A stretch of DNA of 64,000 bases from Sorangium cellulosum (lineage in GTDB: Bacteria; Myxococcota_A; Polyangia; Polyangiales; Polyangiaceae), in assembly GCA_020720045.1 (NCBI GenBank), contig DYPH01000006.1, positions 1-64,000 on the forward strand, read 5' to 3'. The position numbers were made by a program, and so were the translations under genes. Below, one piece after another: positions 47 to 56,929 of this stretch (the stretch's first letter is position 1; every line of letters begins with the position of its first letter). The notes under the pieces were generated by a model. The model was given only the letters and a program-made list of their open reading frames with translations, searched no databases and was not told where the DNA came from.

Positions 47-1243
47 CTAGGTCGCCTGCGTGAGCAAGAATGCCGCGTCGCGCGGATCGAGGGAGGGGAG
101 GACCTCGTCGAGGGTGCCGGTCGTCTGGCGATCGACGCCGAGGCGCCGCGCCACCACACGGGCGAGCGCCGCGAGGAGTGGGTTCGGCGCGGTTGCGAGG
201 GCGACGACGTCGCGGGCGAGCGGGCGAAGGTCGAGGAGACCTGCGAGCGCCACGGCGAGGGGCCTTCGGTCGAGGGCCTCCGCGCGGCGCGACGTGAGGA
301 CCGCGCGAAGGGCGCGGAAGGTCCCTTCGCTGACGCCAGGGAGCGCGCGGTCCCGGCGCCCCCGGTAGTCGAAGGGGCTCAAATCGAGCTCCGCGGAAGC
401 GTCTGCGGTATGCAGATATTCCGTCGCCTGCTCCACGAGCATTTCCGCGTGCGGCTCGGTCGGGTCGGCGGTCCCCCCTTCCGGATCGAGGCTGAGCGCC
501 ACGCCGCGGCCTTGCTCCTCGCGGTAAGCGGCCAGGTGGACGGCGAGCGCATCTACGGAGACACCACCGTGAGTTTTTCCGGCGTAAAGCTTTCGATTTG
601 CTTCGGAATGTCCATCCGCGACCTCCACGACGACCAGCGAATACAGGGTCGTCGCGACGCCGTTTTCGCTGCCGTGGACGCTGTGGGCGTGGATCCCATC
701 GACGGCGAGCCAACGAAGCGCGCGCGTCGACTCCGGGCCATCGATAAGCACGCCGTAGGGGAAGAGCGCCATCGCCACCGGTTCCGCCCGTTCGGGAATC
801 TCGCGAGGCCTCCGGAATAGTTGCATCATGCAAGTAGCGAGCGAGAGCCCGGCGACGCCGAGCAGCACCGCTCCCGGCAGGTGGCCGAAGTAGGGGACGC
901 TCGCGCCGGCCGCCACAAACCCCAGAGATCCTGCAACAAATCCGCCACGTGGTGGCTGGTAGGGGTCGAGTCCGATGTACCGAAAGTCGATGGGTGGCGC
1001 GAGCCTCGGGGCGTCCTCCACCACGGCAGCGCGTGCGGTACCGGGGCCCGTCCGTTCGCGACCGCCAGCAAATTCCCTGGCGGAGGCGTCGCGAGAGACG
1101 GCGGGCCCACTTTGACCGGGGCCCGTCCGTTCGCGACCGCCAGCAAATTCCCTGGCGGAGGCGTCGCGAGAGACGGCGGGCCCACTTTGACCGGGGCCCG
1201 CGAGAGCGCCGTCGGTCGCGGGTGCAGGGGGAGCGCTCGTCAC
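47..1243 (-). CDS. Membrane protein of unknown function with repeat-derived N-terminus
   Basis: I do not recognise a family. The protein has a Pro/Ala-rich start, then two identical 25-residue units (GPAVSRDASAREFAGGRERT within each) encoded by the tandem 75-bp repeat, then a hydrophobic hairpin of two segments ending near CMMQLF, and a soluble C-terminal half of about 250 residues rich in Leu/Ala/Arg. The start is uncertain. The frame stays open back to 1444, but that would overlap the divergent kinase gene, so the GTG at 1243 is chosen. A GTG near 1022, downstream of the repeats, is also possible and would leave the repeats untranslated. No convincing ribosome site precedes either. The function cannot be inferred from neighbours. 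Confidence 0.6.
   Translation of the reverse strand: MTSAPPAPATDGALAGPGQSGPAVSRDASAREFAGGRERTGPGQSGPAVSRDASAREFAGGRERTGPGTARAAVVEDAPRLAPPIDFRYIGLDPYQPPRGGFVAGSLGFVAAGASVPYFGHLPGAVLLGVAGLSLATCMMQLFRRPREIPERAEPVAMALFPYGVLIDGPESTRALRWLAVDGIHAHSVHGSENGVATTLYSLVVVEVADGHSEANRKLYAGKTHGGVSVDALAVHLAAYREEQGRGVALSLDPEGGTADPTEPHAEMLVEQATEYLHTADASAELDLSPFDYRGRRDRALPGVSEGTFRALRAVLTSRRAEALDRRPLAVALAGLLDLRPLARDVVALATAPNPLLAALARVVARRLGVDRQTTGTLDEVLPSLDPRDAAFLLTQAT
1040..1200. repeat. Tandem 75-bp palindromic repeat (two copies plus 11 bp)
   Basis: Copies at 1040-1114 and 1115-1189 are identical, followed by the first 11 bases of a third. Each unit is a nested inverted repeat: CCGTC/GACGG outside, CGCGAC/GTCGCG next, and CCGCCAG/CTGGCGG inside around an AT-rich loop. 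The period of 75 keeps a reading frame. A 25-bp part (1086-1110 and 1161-1185) recurs exactly at 43470-43494, so this is a dispersed element and not only a local duplication. Confidence 0.9.
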
Positions 1244-1295
1244 AGGGATGCATCGTAGCAGCGAGCGCCGACGATCGGAGGTAACGTGACCGAGA

Positions 1296-2564
1296 ATGTC
1301 ATCGGTGACCTGCTCGAGCTGCCGAGGGACGATCGACGCGAAAGCGCGAATCTGTCCCCATTGTCGTGTGCCGCGGAAGGTCGATTCCAAGGAGCCGATC
1401 GGTCCCGGAACGCGTATTGTTCGCGGATCAACGTGTACAGTCATCGACGGCGTGCTTGGGCGCGGCGGAATGGCGACCGTCTGGCGCGCTTGGTTGTATT
1501 ATGCACCAGAAGATGGCGACGTAGCTGCCGGAAAAGAGCGCCCAGCACCTGAGCTTTTCGCCCTCAAGGAGCTTCGGCTCGATGGGGCGGAGGCCGATTC
1601 GCTTCGTGATTTTTTCTTCGAAGAGGCGGCCGCACTCAAACGACTATCTCACCCAAATGTCGTCGCTTATCGAGACCTGTTTCGATTTCGAGATTCTCTC
1701 TTCCTCGCGATGGAATTCGTCCCCGGGGAGACCCTCGAACGGCTCCTCCTTCGTCGGCGCCAGCAGGCGGCCACAGGCATCGAGCCGGCGCGCGCGATCG
1801 CCTATGCGCTCCAGCTCTGCGGTGCCCTTGCCGCCTGCCATGCGCTTGGGGTCGTTCACCGCGACATCAAACCGTCGAACATCCTCTTGCGTCCAGATGG
1901 TGTTGTAAAAATTACCGATTTTGGCATCGCAAAGGTGCGCGTTCGGAAGACCGCCGAGCCGGGCGAGGTCGAACCGGAGGAGACGATCGTTGCCGGAACC
2001 GGCGCGTACATGGCGCCTGAGCAGGTTCAGGGCGTCGCCGTTGATGGGCGCGCCGACCTCTACGCCGCCGCCGTTGTGCTTTTTGCCTCGCTGACGGGGC
2101 GCCTCCCGTTCCCCATCGACGGGAAAAACGAATACCAGGTACGCTGGGATCAGGTGCATACTGCACCTATTCCCTTCTTGTCGCTCCTCGCCGATGCGCC
2201 GCCGGCCCTCGGCGCGTTCTTCGACCGCGCCCTCGCAAAGGACCGGGACGCTCGCTTTCCCGACGGAATTGCGATGGGGGATGCGCTCCTTGCCGCTTCC
2301 GGGATGCGCGCCGATGCGGGCTGGGCCGCCCAACGGGAAGGGGCGATCCGCGCTGCCGCTTCCCGGAAAGGGGGGACGACCGCGTTTTCCGCCCACGCCC
2401 CCAAGGCGACCGTCTTTGAGCTTCCGGTGCCCTCCGTCGGCCCTGTTTCGCGAAAAGGGGCGACGATGCCGATCACAATTCCGCCGGTCCCCGTGGCCAA
2501 GGCAGCACTTCGTACAGTGCCGGTTATGCCAACGGTTCCGCCGCGTGGTCGCGACGAGAAATAA
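1296..2564 (+). CDS. Serine/threonine protein kinase with N-terminal zinc ribbon
   Basis: Hanks-type kinase of 422 residues that would phosphorylate Ser/Thr on partner proteins. It starts with a zinc-ribbon-like module (CSSC at 6-9, CPHC at 20-23). The kinase core follows: glycine loop LGRGGMATVWRA near 54-65, ATP-binding Lys in ALKEL at about 91, catalytic loop HRDIKPSN at 188-195, DFG at 208-210 and a MAPE motif about 30 residues later. After the kinase comes a roughly 100-residue Pro/Lys/Ala-rich tail with no transmembrane segment, so the protein is probably cytosolic, unlike the many membrane-anchored Pkn kinases. The ATG at 1296 has a GGAGG 14 bases upstream. Its gene is divergent from the membrane protein to its left. 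Confidence 0.95.
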   Translation: MSSVTCSSCRGTIDAKARICPHCRVPRKVDSKEPIGPGTRIVRGSTCTVIDGVLGRGGMATVWRAWLYYAPEDGDVAAGKERPAPELFALKELRLDGAEADSLRDFFFEEAAALKRLSHPNVVAYRDLFRFRDSLFLAMEFVPGETLERLLLRRRQQAATGIEPARAIAYALQLCGALAACHALGVVHRDIKPSNILLRPDGVVKITDFGIAKVRVRKTAEPGEVEPEETIVAGTGAYMAPEQVQGVAVDGRADLYAAAVVLFASLTGRLPFPIDGKNEYQVRWDQVHTAPIPFLSLLADAPPALGAFFDRALAKDRDARFPDGIAMGDALLAASGMRADAGWAAQREGAIRAAASRKGGTTAFSAHAPKATVFELPVPSVGPVSRKGATMPITIPPVPVAKAALRTVPVMPTVPPRGRDEK

Positions 2565-2745: not shown

Positions 2746-2808
2746 CACCGAAGGTCCGTCGACTACGTGAGATCCACGTACGGGGTGCCGGAAGAACGTG
2801 AGTGTGAG

Positions 2809-3303
2809 ATGAGCAAGCGACTCTACGTGGGCAACCTTCCCTTCCGCGCGACCTCCGAGGAGCTCCGCGAGTCGTTCTCGGCCTTCGGGACGGTGACCGA
2901 CGTCCACGTGATGACCGACCGGGAAACCGGCCGGAGCCGCGGATTCGGGTTCGTCACGATGTCGACGGACGAAGAGGCGATCAACGCCATGGGCGGCATG
3001 AACGGCGCACTCTTCGCCGGCCGTCCCCTTCGCGTCAACGAGGCTGAAGAGCGCGCCCCCCGCGCCGGCGGCTTCGGTGGCGGTGGTGGTGGTGGCGGAG
3101 CGCCCCGCGCCGGCGGCTTCGGCGGTGGTGGCGGCGGTGGCGGCGGCTACGGGGGTGGTGGCGGCGGCGGCTATGGGGGCGGCGGCGGTGGTCGCGGTCC
3201 GGGCGGCCCCGGTGGGGGTGGCGGCGGTGGTGGTCGCGGCGGCCGTGGCGGTCGTGGCGGTGGCGGTGGCGGAGATCGCGACCGCGGTGGCGATCGCTGG
3301 TGA
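2809..3303 (+). CDS. RRM-family RNA-binding protein with glycine-rich tail
   Basis: 164-residue protein. Residues 1-80 form one RRM fold, with RNP2 RLYVGNLPF near the start and RNP1 RGFGFVTM around residue 48; these bind single-stranded RNA through stacked aromatic residues. The rest is a low-complexity Gly/Arg/Tyr tail like those of cyanobacterial and myxobacterial Rbp proteins, which act in cold or stress adaptation. The ATG at 2809 is chosen because the RRM begins at once after MSK; the frame is open upstream to 2767, but those 14 residues are not part of the domain. The gene stands alone, between a long leader and a strong terminator. Confidence 0.93.
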   Translation: MSKRLYVGNLPFRATSEELRESFSAFGTVTDVHVMTDRETGRSRGFGFVTMSTDEEAINAMGGMNGALFAGRPLRVNEAEERAPRAGGFGGGGGGGGAPRAGGFGGGGGGGGGYGGGGGGGYGGGGGGRGPGGPGGGGGGGGRGGRGGRGGGGGGDRDRGGDRW

Positions 3304-24976: not shown

Positions 24977-25474
24977 ATGGCCACGTCGAAGACGACGGAT
25001 ACGAAGATCGAAAACCCGAAGCCGGCTCGCCGCCCCTTCGCGTCGTTCTCGGCGACGAAGGAATGGGCGGAGAAAGACCGGGGCTGGTGGGTCGTCGACG
25101 CGACGGACAAGCCCCTTGGCCGCCTCGCGAGCGAAGTGGCCCGCGTGCTCCGCGGCAAGCACAAGCCGACGTTCACCCCCCACGTTGACAATGGCGACTT
25201 CGTCATCGTCGTCAACGCCGACAAAATCCTCCTCACGGGGAACAAGGCGAATCAGAAGGCGTGGAACCGTCACTCGGGTATCCCGGGCGGTTTCAAGGCC
25301 ACCAACTACGCCGATCTCCTCGAAACCAAGCCGACGTTCCCGGTCGAAAAGGCCGTGAAGGGGATGCTCCCCAAGAACGTTCTCGGCCGCGATATTTTCA
25401 CGAAGCTCAAGGTCTACGCGACCGCGGATCATCCGCACGTCGCGCAGAAGCCGCAAGCGCTCGTCCTCAAGTGA
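24977..25474 (+). CDS. rplM: 50S ribosomal protein L13
   Basis: 165 residues, somewhat longer than the usual 140-150 because of an N-terminal extension of about 25 charged residues ([18 protein letters not shown]). The core is typical: [47 protein letters not shown] and [10 protein letters not shown]. It binds 23S rRNA early in 50S assembly. The ATG at 24977 follows a GGAG eight bases before. It stands with rpsI eleven bases downstream, the standard pair. Confidence 0.97.
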
Positions 25475-38765: not shown

Positions 38766-39193
38766 ATGCGAGCTTTTTTGTTGGTCGGCGTTGCGGCGTG
38801 TGTGGCGGCTACGTTCGCTACACGTGCGGCGCCGTAAAATGTGTTTTTGAAAATTTTAGGGTCTCTCGCGAACGGAGCGGCAGAATTGCCTTTGCCAAGG
38901 CGTACACCCATGAATTTGACGTGAGCGTCCATGGCGAGCCGACGAGTGTACGATTTTCCGCAGGTGGGAGAATTATCGTTAGTACAAGATCGGCAGAATT
39001 GACCATTGATGGTGCATCATCGATTTCGCGCATCGATCCGACGTACGGACGAATCATGTGCGTGGATGACGACAATACCATCTACACATTTTCGACCTAC
39101 CGCTTCGAAGTCTACAAGCACACTCCTGGTCCGATGCGGCAAGGCGTCGTCCCTGACAACGCCCCCGCCAAGGAATTTGCTGGCGTTCGACGG
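38766..39193 (+). pseudogene. Decayed secreted-protein gene
   Basis: A good ribosome site (AAAGGGAG) precedes an ATG at 38766 that encodes a perfect signal peptide (MRAFLLVGVAACVAATFATR), but the frame stops at TAA after 23 codons. Another frame from about 38830 to 39140 encodes a plausible protein with WD/PQQ-like beta features (THEFDVSVHGEPTSV, ELTIDGASSISRIDP, DDDNTIYTFSTYRFEV). A frameshift between signal and mature part is the simple explanation. Base use is less GC-rich than neighbours, and the downstream end runs into the palindromic element at 39151. Alternatively the 23-residue ORF is a leader peptide. Confidence 0.5.
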
Positions 39194-39199
39194 TCAGGG
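39151..39199. repeat. Palindromic element, copy at 39.2 kb
   Basis: Nested inverted repeat: CCCTGAC (39151-39157) pairs with GTCAGGG (39193-39199), and AACGCC (39159-39164) with GGCGTT (39182-39187). The core CCAAGGAATTTGCTGG matches the core of the 1.0-kb repeat read on the other strand. The stop codon of the lipoprotein gene on the minus strand lies in the right arm. Confidence 0.7.
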
Positions 39200-42743: not shown

Positions 42744-43409
42744 CTAGCGGCGAAGCCCGAGCAACAACGAAAGAGCGCTCGCCACGAGGACGGCGGCGCC
42801 CACCAGCGGCAGCGCCAGACTCGGGGCGAGAAAGGCGCTGACGACTCCAAAAAGTCCCGTGAGTACGTAGAGATGCCCTGCACGCCTGTGGACGCGCGCC
42901 CAGAGTTCCGGGTCGGCGAGCGTCGCCGATGTGCGAATGCCGACGAAGCGATTCCGCGGGACCTTCGGGAGGAGGAGCCCGAGAGCGAACAGAAAAATCG
43001 CGAGGAGGAGGGCCAGCGGGGCGAGGCTCTTTCCGCCGCCCCCGAGGAGGCCGACGGCGCGCACAGCCAGGCCGCCGTAGATCGCAACGACGAAGAGGGC
43101 GCTGCCATGAAGCGCGGTGGCGACGGGTTTGCCCCCTTCACGTGCGCGCTCGTTCGCAACCGCCTGCGAATTCTCTGGCGATCGCGCGATTCCGAGGGCG
43201 GTGAGCACCGTTGTGAGCACAACGCCAGAGACGCAGAAGGCGGCCCGCGACATCGTGCCGTTGGGCGTTCCGTCGAGGGCGAAGTGGGTCTCCAGTTCGC
43301 CGGGCAAATAGCGGTAGAGTGCAACCATTGCTGCACCAAGCATCGCCGGGAGGAGGAGTGGTGCAAACCGGGCAGGGGATGGCGCCGGGGAGGACGGGAT
43401 CGTAAGCAT
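42744..43409 (-). CDS. sdpI: SdpI-family membrane protein
   Basis: 221 residues with about six membrane helices, a DUF1648-like start (LETHFALDGTPNGTMSR) and the SdpI signature RNRFVGIRTSATLADPELWARVHR. In Bacillus subtilis SdpI gives immunity to the SdpC killing peptide and signals to SdpR. Many bacteria hold only this pair, as here. Between 43142 and 43195 the sequence matches the palindromic element in an alternative frame (AIAREFAGGCERART), while the gene frame reads ARSPENSQAVANER, so the loop may derive from an insertion. AAAGGAATTTTCA precedes the ATG. Confidence 0.88.
   Translation of the reverse strand: MLTIPSSPAPSPARFAPLLLPAMLGAAMVALYRYLPGELETHFALDGTPNGTMSRAAFCVSGVVLTTVLTALGIARSPENSQAVANERAREGGKPVATALHGSALFVVAIYGGLAVRAVGLLGGGGKSLAPLALLLAIFLFALGLLLPKVPRNRFVGIRTSATLADPELWARVHRRAGHLYVLTGLFGVVSAFLAPSLALPLVGAAVLVASALSLLLGLRR
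43142..43195. repeat. Palindromic element remnant inside sdpI
   Basis: The minus strand around 43142-43195 matches the core of the 1.0-kb repeat (CGCCAG-GAATT-GC-GGCGGT-GCGAACG with a few changes). It is read in a different frame by sdpI. Confidence 0.6.
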
Positions 43410-43420
43410 TGAAAATTCCT

Positions 43421-43783
43421 TTACGTAGGACGCTTGGGGCGCCGGTCTGCGGACGGCAGTTCTCCGGCTGCGTCGCGAGAGACGGCGGGCCCACCAGGAC
43501 TGGGGCGCGTGCTCGCGAGGTCGAGAATCTCGGCGGCGAGTTCTTCGAGGAGGTTGGTTTGAAGGGTGTAGACGACACGCGTTCCGCGCCGCTCCGAGCG
43601 GACGAGACCCGCCTCTTCGAGGGTGCGGAAGTGGTGGGAGAGCGTCGCTTTGCTGATGGCGAAGTGCTCGGCGATCTCGCCAGCGCCGAGGGAGCCTTTG
43701 CGGAGCAGGCGTAGGATGCCGCGGCGGGTCGGGTCTCCGAGGGCGCGGAACAGATCGGACTGGGTTTCGTGGGGCGGCGTCAT
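43421..43783 (-). CDS. sdpR: SdpR-type ArsR-family repressor
   Basis: 120 residues. Winged helix over residues 1-90: LFRALGDPTRRGILRLLRKG, recognition helix ISKATLSHHFRTLEEAGLV and wing VRSERRGTRVVYTL. No metal-binding Cys, as in SdpR. Normal members end near residue 92; here the C-terminus is extended by about 28 residues, of which GGPAVSRDA comes from the palindromic element in the same frame used in the gene at 47-1243. It lies 11 bases before sdpI. It should bind the palindrome at 43792-43805 and repress its own operon. Confidence 0.92.
   Translation of the reverse strand: MTPPHETQSDLFRALGDPTRRGILRLLRKGSLGAGEIAEHFAISKATLSHHFRTLEEAGLVRSERRGTRVVYTLQTNLLEELAAEILDLASTRPSPGGPAVSRDAAGELPSADRRPKRPT
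43470..43494. repeat. 25-bp exact copy of the palindromic element in sdpR
   Basis: These 25 bases, from GCGTCGCGAGAG to GCGGGCCCAC, are identical to 1086-1110 and 1161-1185. Flanks out to about 43436-43513 are also similar (the unit's GGGGCGCG right edge). Confidence 0.88.
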
Positions 43784-51246: not shown

Positions 51247-52124
51247 CGAAGCGCCTCTTTCGCGTAAAGGGCGAGGCGTGCGAGGGCGCCCAAAGCGAAT
51301 AGCTGGGAGCGGAGGATGCCAAGGATCTTCTGCTTACGCGGGAGAATGTGGCTCCAACCAATCCGCGCGGAGAGCGCAAGGCCGACGGCGACACTGAGTA
51401 AAGCGACGGCGACCGATTCCGCGCGGTTGTCGACGAGCCAGGTGGCGAGGGAGAGGATCAATGTCGTGAGGGGAGTCATCGCCCAGAGCCAGTTGATCGC
51501 GTAGGAGCGGCGTTCGACGGGCCCCCACGCGAGGAGACGCTCGCGGAGCTCGGTCCAGTTTTCGAGGGCGTCGGTCAATACGGTTTGTTGGTCGTTGTGG
51601 ACCAAACTGACCTGGCGCCTCAAATCGAGAATGACCTGGACGTCTCGCCGAAGGAGAAAGTGGGGCGGCTGGTTCGGCTGGGTGATCTTGAGGAGGTTCT
51701 CGGAGACGACGACTTCAAGGCCGGCGCCCGCGGCAAGACCGCGGCGAACCCGTACGTAGCTGATGAGTCCGACCACGCCGACGACCGCCGCCATCATGAC
51801 GACCGCCGCGCCGCCGACGAGGATGGTGATTTCAGTCATGCCCTCGCGCCCGGCTTCCTGACTGGCGGACACAGCCGCAAGCGCCGCCGGAATGCCCACA
51901 AAGGCGAAGAAGGTCAAAAGGATGCGCCTTCGATGCGCGCGCAAGACGTGGGCGGCGAGCGGCCGGTGGACCCGGATGTCGAAGGGGGGCGCTTGAACTT
52001 CTTCCTCGACCCGCGGTAGCGGGCGAGGACGAACTTGTTCTCCGATCCGGCGCTTCGCCGGGCGGAGACCAACTTCTTGAGCAGCGCCTTCTGTGGCGCC
52101 TTCTTCTCCTGAGCGGGTTTGCAT
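51243..52124 (-). CDS. Membrane protein of unknown function
   Basis: 293 residues with four membrane helices in two pairs (ILLTFFAFVGIPAALAAVSA, AVVMMAAVVGVVGLISYV; SLATWLVDNRAESVAVALLSV and neighbours). A cytosolic about 60-residue region between the pairs (ENLLKITQPNQPPHFLLRRDVQVILDLR) resembles a bacterial PH-like fold. The N-terminal 60 residues are Arg/Glu-rich; the true start may be later. No family named. Confidence 0.7.
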   Translation of the reverse strand: MQTRSGEEGATEGAAQEVGLRPAKRRIGEQVRPRPLPRVEEEVQAPPFDIRVHRPLAAHVLRAHRRRILLTFFAFVGIPAALAAVSASQEAGREGMTEITILVGGAAVVMMAAVVGVVGLISYVRVRRGLAAGAGLEVVVSENLLKITQPNQPPHFLLRRDVQVILDLRRQVSLVHNDQQTVLTDALENWTELRERLLAWGPVERRSYAINWLWAMTPLTTLILSLATWLVDNRAESVAVALLSVAVGLALSARIGWSHILPRKQKILGILRSQLFALGALARLALYAKEALR

Positions 52125-56884: not shown

Positions 56885-56929
56885 GTCGCGTTTGTCTCCG
56901 CCCGGCGCGACGCCGGATCGGAGAACGCG

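Follow-up and report, generated by a model that had tools for sequence, protein, structure and literature searches.

A palindrome of 75 bp, present as two identical copies in tandem, lies at what appears to be the start of a coding region near one end of a 64,000-nt stretch of Sorangium cellulosum DNA (hereafter the window, meaning the whole of this stretch). How does such a structure come to sit within a gene, and does it belong to a wider family? In a preliminary description it was taken for a dispersed element tolerated within genes and comparable in concept to the Rickettsia palindromic elements (RPEs), which are short palindromic repeats found in frame in unrelated genes (PMC10969869, PMC2229807).

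The two units occupy 1040-1114 and 1115-1189 and are followed by 11 nt of a third. A single unit is a nested imperfect palindrome of three stacked helices, with a predicted RNA folding energy of -44 kcal/mol and a z score of -4.1; shuffled sequences were as stable in 0/200 cases on the plus strand and 1/200 on the minus strand. The tandem pair can also fold as one hairpin (DNA fold, z -5.5). Translated from the minus strand, each unit gives 25 in-frame residues, GPGQSGPAVSRDASAREFAGGRERT. The fold scores and this translation confirm what had first been described, namely two identical 75-bp units, a large hairpin and 25 in-frame residues per unit. An Rfam search of window positions 900-1400 returned no match to a known structured RNA family up to E=1. 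In the register in which the element inserts, the array reads as follows.

1044..1118, plus strand: first copy of the element in its insertion register, GGGCCCGTCC...GGGCCCACTTTGACCG, 75 nt (from 45 junctions and clean empty sites)
1119..1193, plus strand: second copy, in tandem and identical to the first (a single copy is present here in the congener, G001)
1194..1198, plus strand: GGGCC target-like pentanucleotide on the host side of the array (from the junction alignment)

Further copies within the window were located with a covariance model.

43437..43496, plus strand: partial copy with its right arm intact (25 bp exact at 43470-43494)
43142..43212, plus strand: degenerate copy in the gene beside sdpR (23.4 bits)
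39141..39196, minus strand: degenerate copy (21.2 bits)
25019..25114, minus strand: diverged copy with a 31-nt loop, possibly a relic (27.5 bits, E 2e-4)

The exact recurrence of the 25-bp right half in sdpR, noticed at the outset, holds at 43470-43494. That partial copy lies within the C-terminal part of an SdpR/ArsR-type gene (43421-43783, minus strand) whose product scores 98.4 bits against the SdpR model, just under the cut-off of 100. The core sequences seen near 39.2 and 43.2 kb are both parts of degenerate copies, those at 39141-39196 and 43142-43212.

The window genome (G000; 6.34 Mb in 357 contigs) and the sole congener compared (G001; MAG JAAFHJ01, Myxococcales bacterium isolate bin76) are both draft assemblies. 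G000 holds 204 right arms (23-nt arm, up to three mismatches) and 185 left arms, with 0 matches to the reversed-pattern control in either case, so chance does not account for them; G001 holds 120 right arms (up to two mismatches) and 114 left arms. Each of 316 further genomes of the class gave at most two arm matches, which is the control level. Across 108 genomes of the family, the covariance model found at least 47 and at least 48 matches in the two congeners and one weak match in the other 106 genomes together. An exact search for the 25-mer core in 84,980 species genomes matched no records except those of G001, and plasmids, phages and viral contigs yielded no match to the element. The search of the genome and its relatives suggested in the preliminary description thus returns many copies in one genus and control level elsewhere; with about 200 copies in G000, the element is dispersed well beyond the few places where it was first seen. 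This count is probably an underestimate because several draft contigs start or end within arrays. With left and right arms almost equally frequent across the genome (185 vs 204 in G000), the copies show no 5'-truncation bias of the kind that target-primed insertion would leave. Two further genera of the family, represented by G008 and G232, gave isolated weak matches covering part of the element (L034:1494-1528 and L238), which are either chance or remote relatives; being single and weak, they were set aside as evidence of a distant relative. Two contigs, at L040 (C302:84300-94400) and L041 (C274:1-7700), have an element site in common, along with identical flanking sequence and neighbouring genes, from either a real duplication or redundancy of the draft assembly.

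Have these copies moved recently? G000 and G001 are about 95% identical over the aligned pieces of the window, and orthologous sites were compared both directly and by searching each genome with the joined flanks of the other's sites. The empty-site orthologues that had been proposed as a check exist: in about a dozen clean site pairs one allele is empty and the other is longer by exactly 75 nt, or by 150 nt for two tandem copies (the pairs include L058/L150, L069/L151, L067/L152, L051/L153, L059/L162 and L134/L181). One further empty/filled pair differs by 72 nt, and a two-copy case was also found. Gains occur on both sides; that is, G000 and G001 each carry copies absent from the other. The tandem number differs as well, being two in G000 and one in G001 at the window site, and one and three, respectively, at the L044 site. 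Within an array, units hardly ever differ, even in the variable loop and the linker, and units of different arrays do differ, so arrays grow locally after insertion. They expand or contract head to tail, 75 nt at a time. The copy number, the empty and filled sites, the insertion length, the in-frame state, the changes in tandem number and the conserved hairpin are all read from the genome sequences themselves. In the RecD-like gene discussed below, one copy holds a nested second palindrome (L064:1529-1636), and G001 has kept a 9-nt in-frame remnant at that site.

The junctions indicate how the element may enter. At 45 aligned sites, the element runs GGGCCCGTCC...GGGCCCACTTCNACAG and is followed by a GGGCC-like host pentamer. 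Its termini form inverted repeats, GGGCCCG/CGGGCCC (helix 1). These repeats, together with the GGGCC that flanks the insertions on both sides at many sites, might suggest a classic MITE that depends on a DDE transposase and duplicates GGGCC as its 5-bp target site. A duplication would make both sides agree; however, the GGGCC is invariant on the element side (44/45) and often degenerate on the host side, where it is exact at 22/45 sites and otherwise often close (GGGCG, GGGCA, GCGCG). Hence the left-end GGGCC is the element's own and the host supplies one GGGCC-like target; across the 45 junctions there is no target-site duplication. Moreover, the loci read revealed no autonomous partner that shares these ends, and we regard the MITE explanation as improbable. 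The element would instead insert beside a GGGCC-like sequence without duplicating it.

The shared GGGCC also invites an explanation in which no dedicated enzyme is needed and the unit spreads through recombination or replication template switching at this microhomology, which is common to the element ends and the target. Replication slippage would give within-array copies that are identical, linker included, and the 9-nt in-frame remnant indicates a deletion between GGGCCC motifs. On the other hand, repeated single 75-nt insertions at unrelated loci are hard to obtain in this way, and the element is limited to one genus. Slippage probably accounts for the tandem changes but not for the dispersal, for which template switching seems decidedly improbable.

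The hairpin itself is conserved. A structure alignment contains 20 double-changed cells, compared with 2.8 in shuffles; they come largely from one compensated subtype, in which the stem TCGCGA becomes CGGCGT/ACGCCG. In this subtype (L065:1240-1383, L073:6975-7043, L043:5388-5456 and L113:3250-3318) the middle stem is swapped for a fully complementary alternative (TCGGCG...CGCCGG), which suggests more than one active lineage of the element. A strand bias with GC skew was also considered and dropped, as no orientation bias of this kind was seen.

How does the element fare within genes? Predicted ORFs contain 42/67 assessable sites (about 63%), with clean 75-nt in-frame insertions in conserved genes, which bears out the claim that it is tolerated there; it is by no means always outside translated regions. 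This share is below the 0.866 (86.6%) expected from the positions of GGGCC (p=8e-7), and insertion into genes is thus avoided or selected against. With ORFs called on the empty allele, the net length difference between alleles was divisible by three in 19/22 cases within ORFs and in 3/8 outside (p=0.016); two of the three exceptions within ORFs are alignments in which another indel close by brings back the frame. This calling replaced an earlier in-frame test (18/18 vs 7/14) that depended on ORFs called across the insert; the retest is weaker and still significant. Insertion frames, which the preliminary description had proposed to list, turn out to be several. Substitutions between the species in the flanks of the inserts fall mainly at third codon positions ([5,2,27] by codon position for L067, [1,0,19] for L134 and [2,3,23] for L057), so the insert-bearing host genes are under selection in that reading frame.

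The hosts include Mfd (mfd; equivalog model, 965 bits), a MATE protein, a P-type ATPase, a prolyl oligopeptidase, an MbnB/TglH-like enzyme, a glyoxalase-II-like protein and a RecD-like (recD-like) helicase with three sites. In a FadJ-like host (fadJ-like), the insertion lies exactly between the NAD-binding and C-terminal domains. The predicted insert-encoded peptides include SGPAVSRDASAR and PFATASEFAGSGVAR (Mfd, FadJ and RecD-like hosts), and, judging from frame and substitution pattern, we infer that the inserts are translated within the host proteins. If so, they are natural experiments in how proteins such as Mfd, FadJ and membrane transporters cope with an additional 25 or 50 residues. 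At L224:2761-6412, three consecutive genes are aminotransferase-like, LuxE-like and acyl-CoA-reductase-like, and the last two each hold an in-frame copy. An autonomous element between inverted copies (C7/C13) was ruled out, the genes there being an aminotransferase and LuxE/LuxC-like genes.

The length of the unit matters here. As 75 nt correspond to 25 codons and all six frames of the consensus are free of stops, an insertion would add 25 residues instead of killing the gene, and inserts would persist in real proteins unless selection removes them. A stop in at least one frame occurs in 15/68 distinct units. Six open frames are not strong evidence of adaptation: at matched GC content they are also seen in 39% of shuffles and in 23% of 75-mers drawn from the window. 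The two Arg-rich frames are used in 2/34 cases, and this preference for the other four of the six frames was set aside because the codon phase of GGGCC in genes mostly explains it (p=0.06).

Rather than a selfish insertion, could the unit be a protein module or an RNA regulatory element maintained by selection? The strong hairpin with its covariation would fit such a role, as would an excess of the sense orientation in ORFs (distribution vs target availability, p=0.007). The host genes, however, are unrelated, and the inserts are read in several frames and encode peptides with no relation to one another; empty orthologues are common; and the depletion in ORFs relative to GGGCC availability is as for mildly harmful insertions (42/67 vs 0.866, p=8e-7). 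We give this alternative a very small chance. Best read as a selfish element tolerated within genes, the unit would require no cellular benefit, and that it is a non-autonomous mobile palindrome tolerated in frame we consider almost certain.

The window array has a host gene of its own.

47..1243, minus strand: membrane-protein-like ORF hosting the array (start most plausibly GTG 1243; the array covers about codons 17-67)

This ORF matched nothing in Pfam or NCBIfam. Compared with G001, its mismatches over 47-916 are distributed [3,5,45] by codon position. At this one site the array might instead be an untranslated 5' region between divergent genes: a codon-based caller places the start of the minus-strand gene at 916, and the third-position bias across 917-1039 is weak ([3,3,5]). 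Yet the frame from GTG 1243 is maintained across the insertion in both species, the only indel at this locus apart from the array falls at 1247, immediately upstream of this start codon, and MTSAPPAPATDGALAG, the N-terminal sequence of the ORF from GTG 1243, is nearly conserved between them. Copies elsewhere in the genome are unambiguously intragenic. An untranslated array is therefore unlikely, though not negligible as an alternative; most plausibly, to judge from the reading frame, the frame from GTG 1243 continues through the array into the host gene near its N-terminus. Close by, a Ser/Thr protein kinase gene (1296-2564) encodes an N-terminal cysteine-rich stretch and adjoins a gene (2767-3303, plus strand) for an RRM RNA-binding protein whose tail is long and Gly-rich.

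Palindromes that sit in frame in proteins have been described mainly in Rickettsia and in a few MITE families. Like RPEs, the 75-mer is a palindromic unit with a long hairpin that is inserted in frame in genes for conserved proteins and also lies between genes. It differs in being exactly 75 nt at clean empty sites, whereas RPEs measure 105-146 bp (PMC2229807), and in its GC-rich sequence, GGGCC-adjacent target and head-to-tail variation in copy number. Its core is furthermore found in one myxobacterial genus only (exact 25-mer scan of 84,980 species genomes). The comparison with RPEs is thus apt as an analogy (in-frame copies in unrelated genes), and the 75-mer is no member of that family, being, on the evidence of the core scan, unrelated to it in sequence. 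How RPEs move is, to our knowledge, not settled. The MITEs ERIC, Correia/NEMIS and YPAL contain open frames and can form in-frame gene fusions in some cases (PMC2229807). They share with the 75-mer a non-autonomous nature, terminal inverted repeats and some in-frame fusions, but the 75-mer makes no target duplication, is much shorter and has no recognised parent IS. Mycobacterial interspersed repetitive units are dispersed units of 50-100 bp that form tandem arrays of variable copy number; they are not strong palindromes, and their organism is unrelated to the host of the 75-mer. In line with the initial statement that no such family is described for this group, we found none described for myxobacteria in the open-access literature. 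Measured against the literature searched, the combination of an exact 25-codon unit, a high intragenic share, a one-sided GGGCC and in-frame tandem growth appears to be new. The arrays are also ready-made variable-number markers for this uncultured genus.

Which enzyme might move the element? A Y1 (HUH) transposase family characterised by an NHIHE motif is matched 12 times in G000 and 14 times in G001; most of these matches are 64-100% identical, and some are partial, at contig ends. Relatives have only homologues at no more than 37% identity. The family matches the NCBIfam model REP_Tyr_transpos (REP-associated tyrosine transposase) at E 2e-10, below the NCBI cut-off. It belongs to an insertion sequence with a conserved left end, CCCCCCTGGCCCGGGCCAGGCAAATT, and a right end near CTCTAAATCnAGCTgTCAG.

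L216:3015-3989, L217, L218, L220-L223 and L077, and L227-L235 in the congener: genus-specific, multi-copy RAYT-like insertion sequence

Substrates of RAYTs are defined by a GTAG/GTGG tag (PMC6006769, PMC3733652). Hairpins proximal to the transposase carry GTGG in 15/17 cases. A hairpin with a GTGG foot is likewise formed by the bottom strand of the 75-mer, in 56/67 distinct units (GT directly before GGGCCC), the GG of the tag doubling as the first bases of the stem. The one-sided target without duplication would also be of the IS200/IS605 type, unlike that of a DDE transposase. In view of the GTGG-tagged bottom strand, the one-sided target and the expansion of RAYT-like genes in this genus alone, we infer that the element may move as a single-stranded hairpin, recognised in trans by a RAYT-type Y1 (HUH) transposase. 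At 21 loci the 75-mer was not found flanking the Y1 genes (nearest copies at 140 bp, 0.7 kb and at least 1.8 kb), its similarity to the ends of the RAYT-like insertion sequence is not significant (shuffle fraction at least 0.07), and no autonomous partner sharing its ends was recognised in the loci read. The co-occurrence of element and Y1 family is that of one genus, and so counts as one evolutionary event. The RAYT-type Y1 family is the leading, as yet unproven, candidate mobiliser, and its action in trans has, in our judgement, a little under an even chance of being correct.

REPs, with their defining hairpin (PMC6006769), have precedent within genes (PMC3733652). The 75-mer resembles RAYT-associated REPs in its imperfect hairpin, GTGG foot, species-specific high copy number and the presence of RAYT-like Y1 genes in the same genomes. 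It is, however, longer (a 65-nt hairpin in a 75-nt unit) and mostly intragenic (42/67), whereas REPs are mostly extragenic; it does not flank RAYT-like genes, and two bases of its tag lie within the stem. Taken as a whole, the reading of a non-autonomous, recently mobile, genus-specific 75-nt palindrome with a RAYT-type mobiliser is reasonably probable. Its most specific form, a RAYT-mobilised, GTGG-tagged hairpin of 25 codons with six open frames that invades proteins at GGGCC in a frame-neutral manner and grows in tandem, in frame, within core genes, is put forward tentatively, as less likely than not. If true, the RAYT route links Rickettsia-style coding palindromes to the single-strand transposition machinery of REPs and RAYTs. 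The two sister genomes provide filled alleles paired with empty ones, fix the unit length exactly, and yield both a rule for the target and a candidate family of transposases, so that the entry and survival of such elements in genes become directly testable.

A second dispersed palindrome, TCTCCGATCCGGCGTCTCGCCGGGCGGAGA, is present in the window at 52037-52073 (plus strand) and 56890-56926 (minus strand). It has 132 copies in G000, 68 in the congener and 0 in 37 relatives. It often lies just 3' of RAYT-like genes and can nest in the 75-mer (L064:1561-1596).
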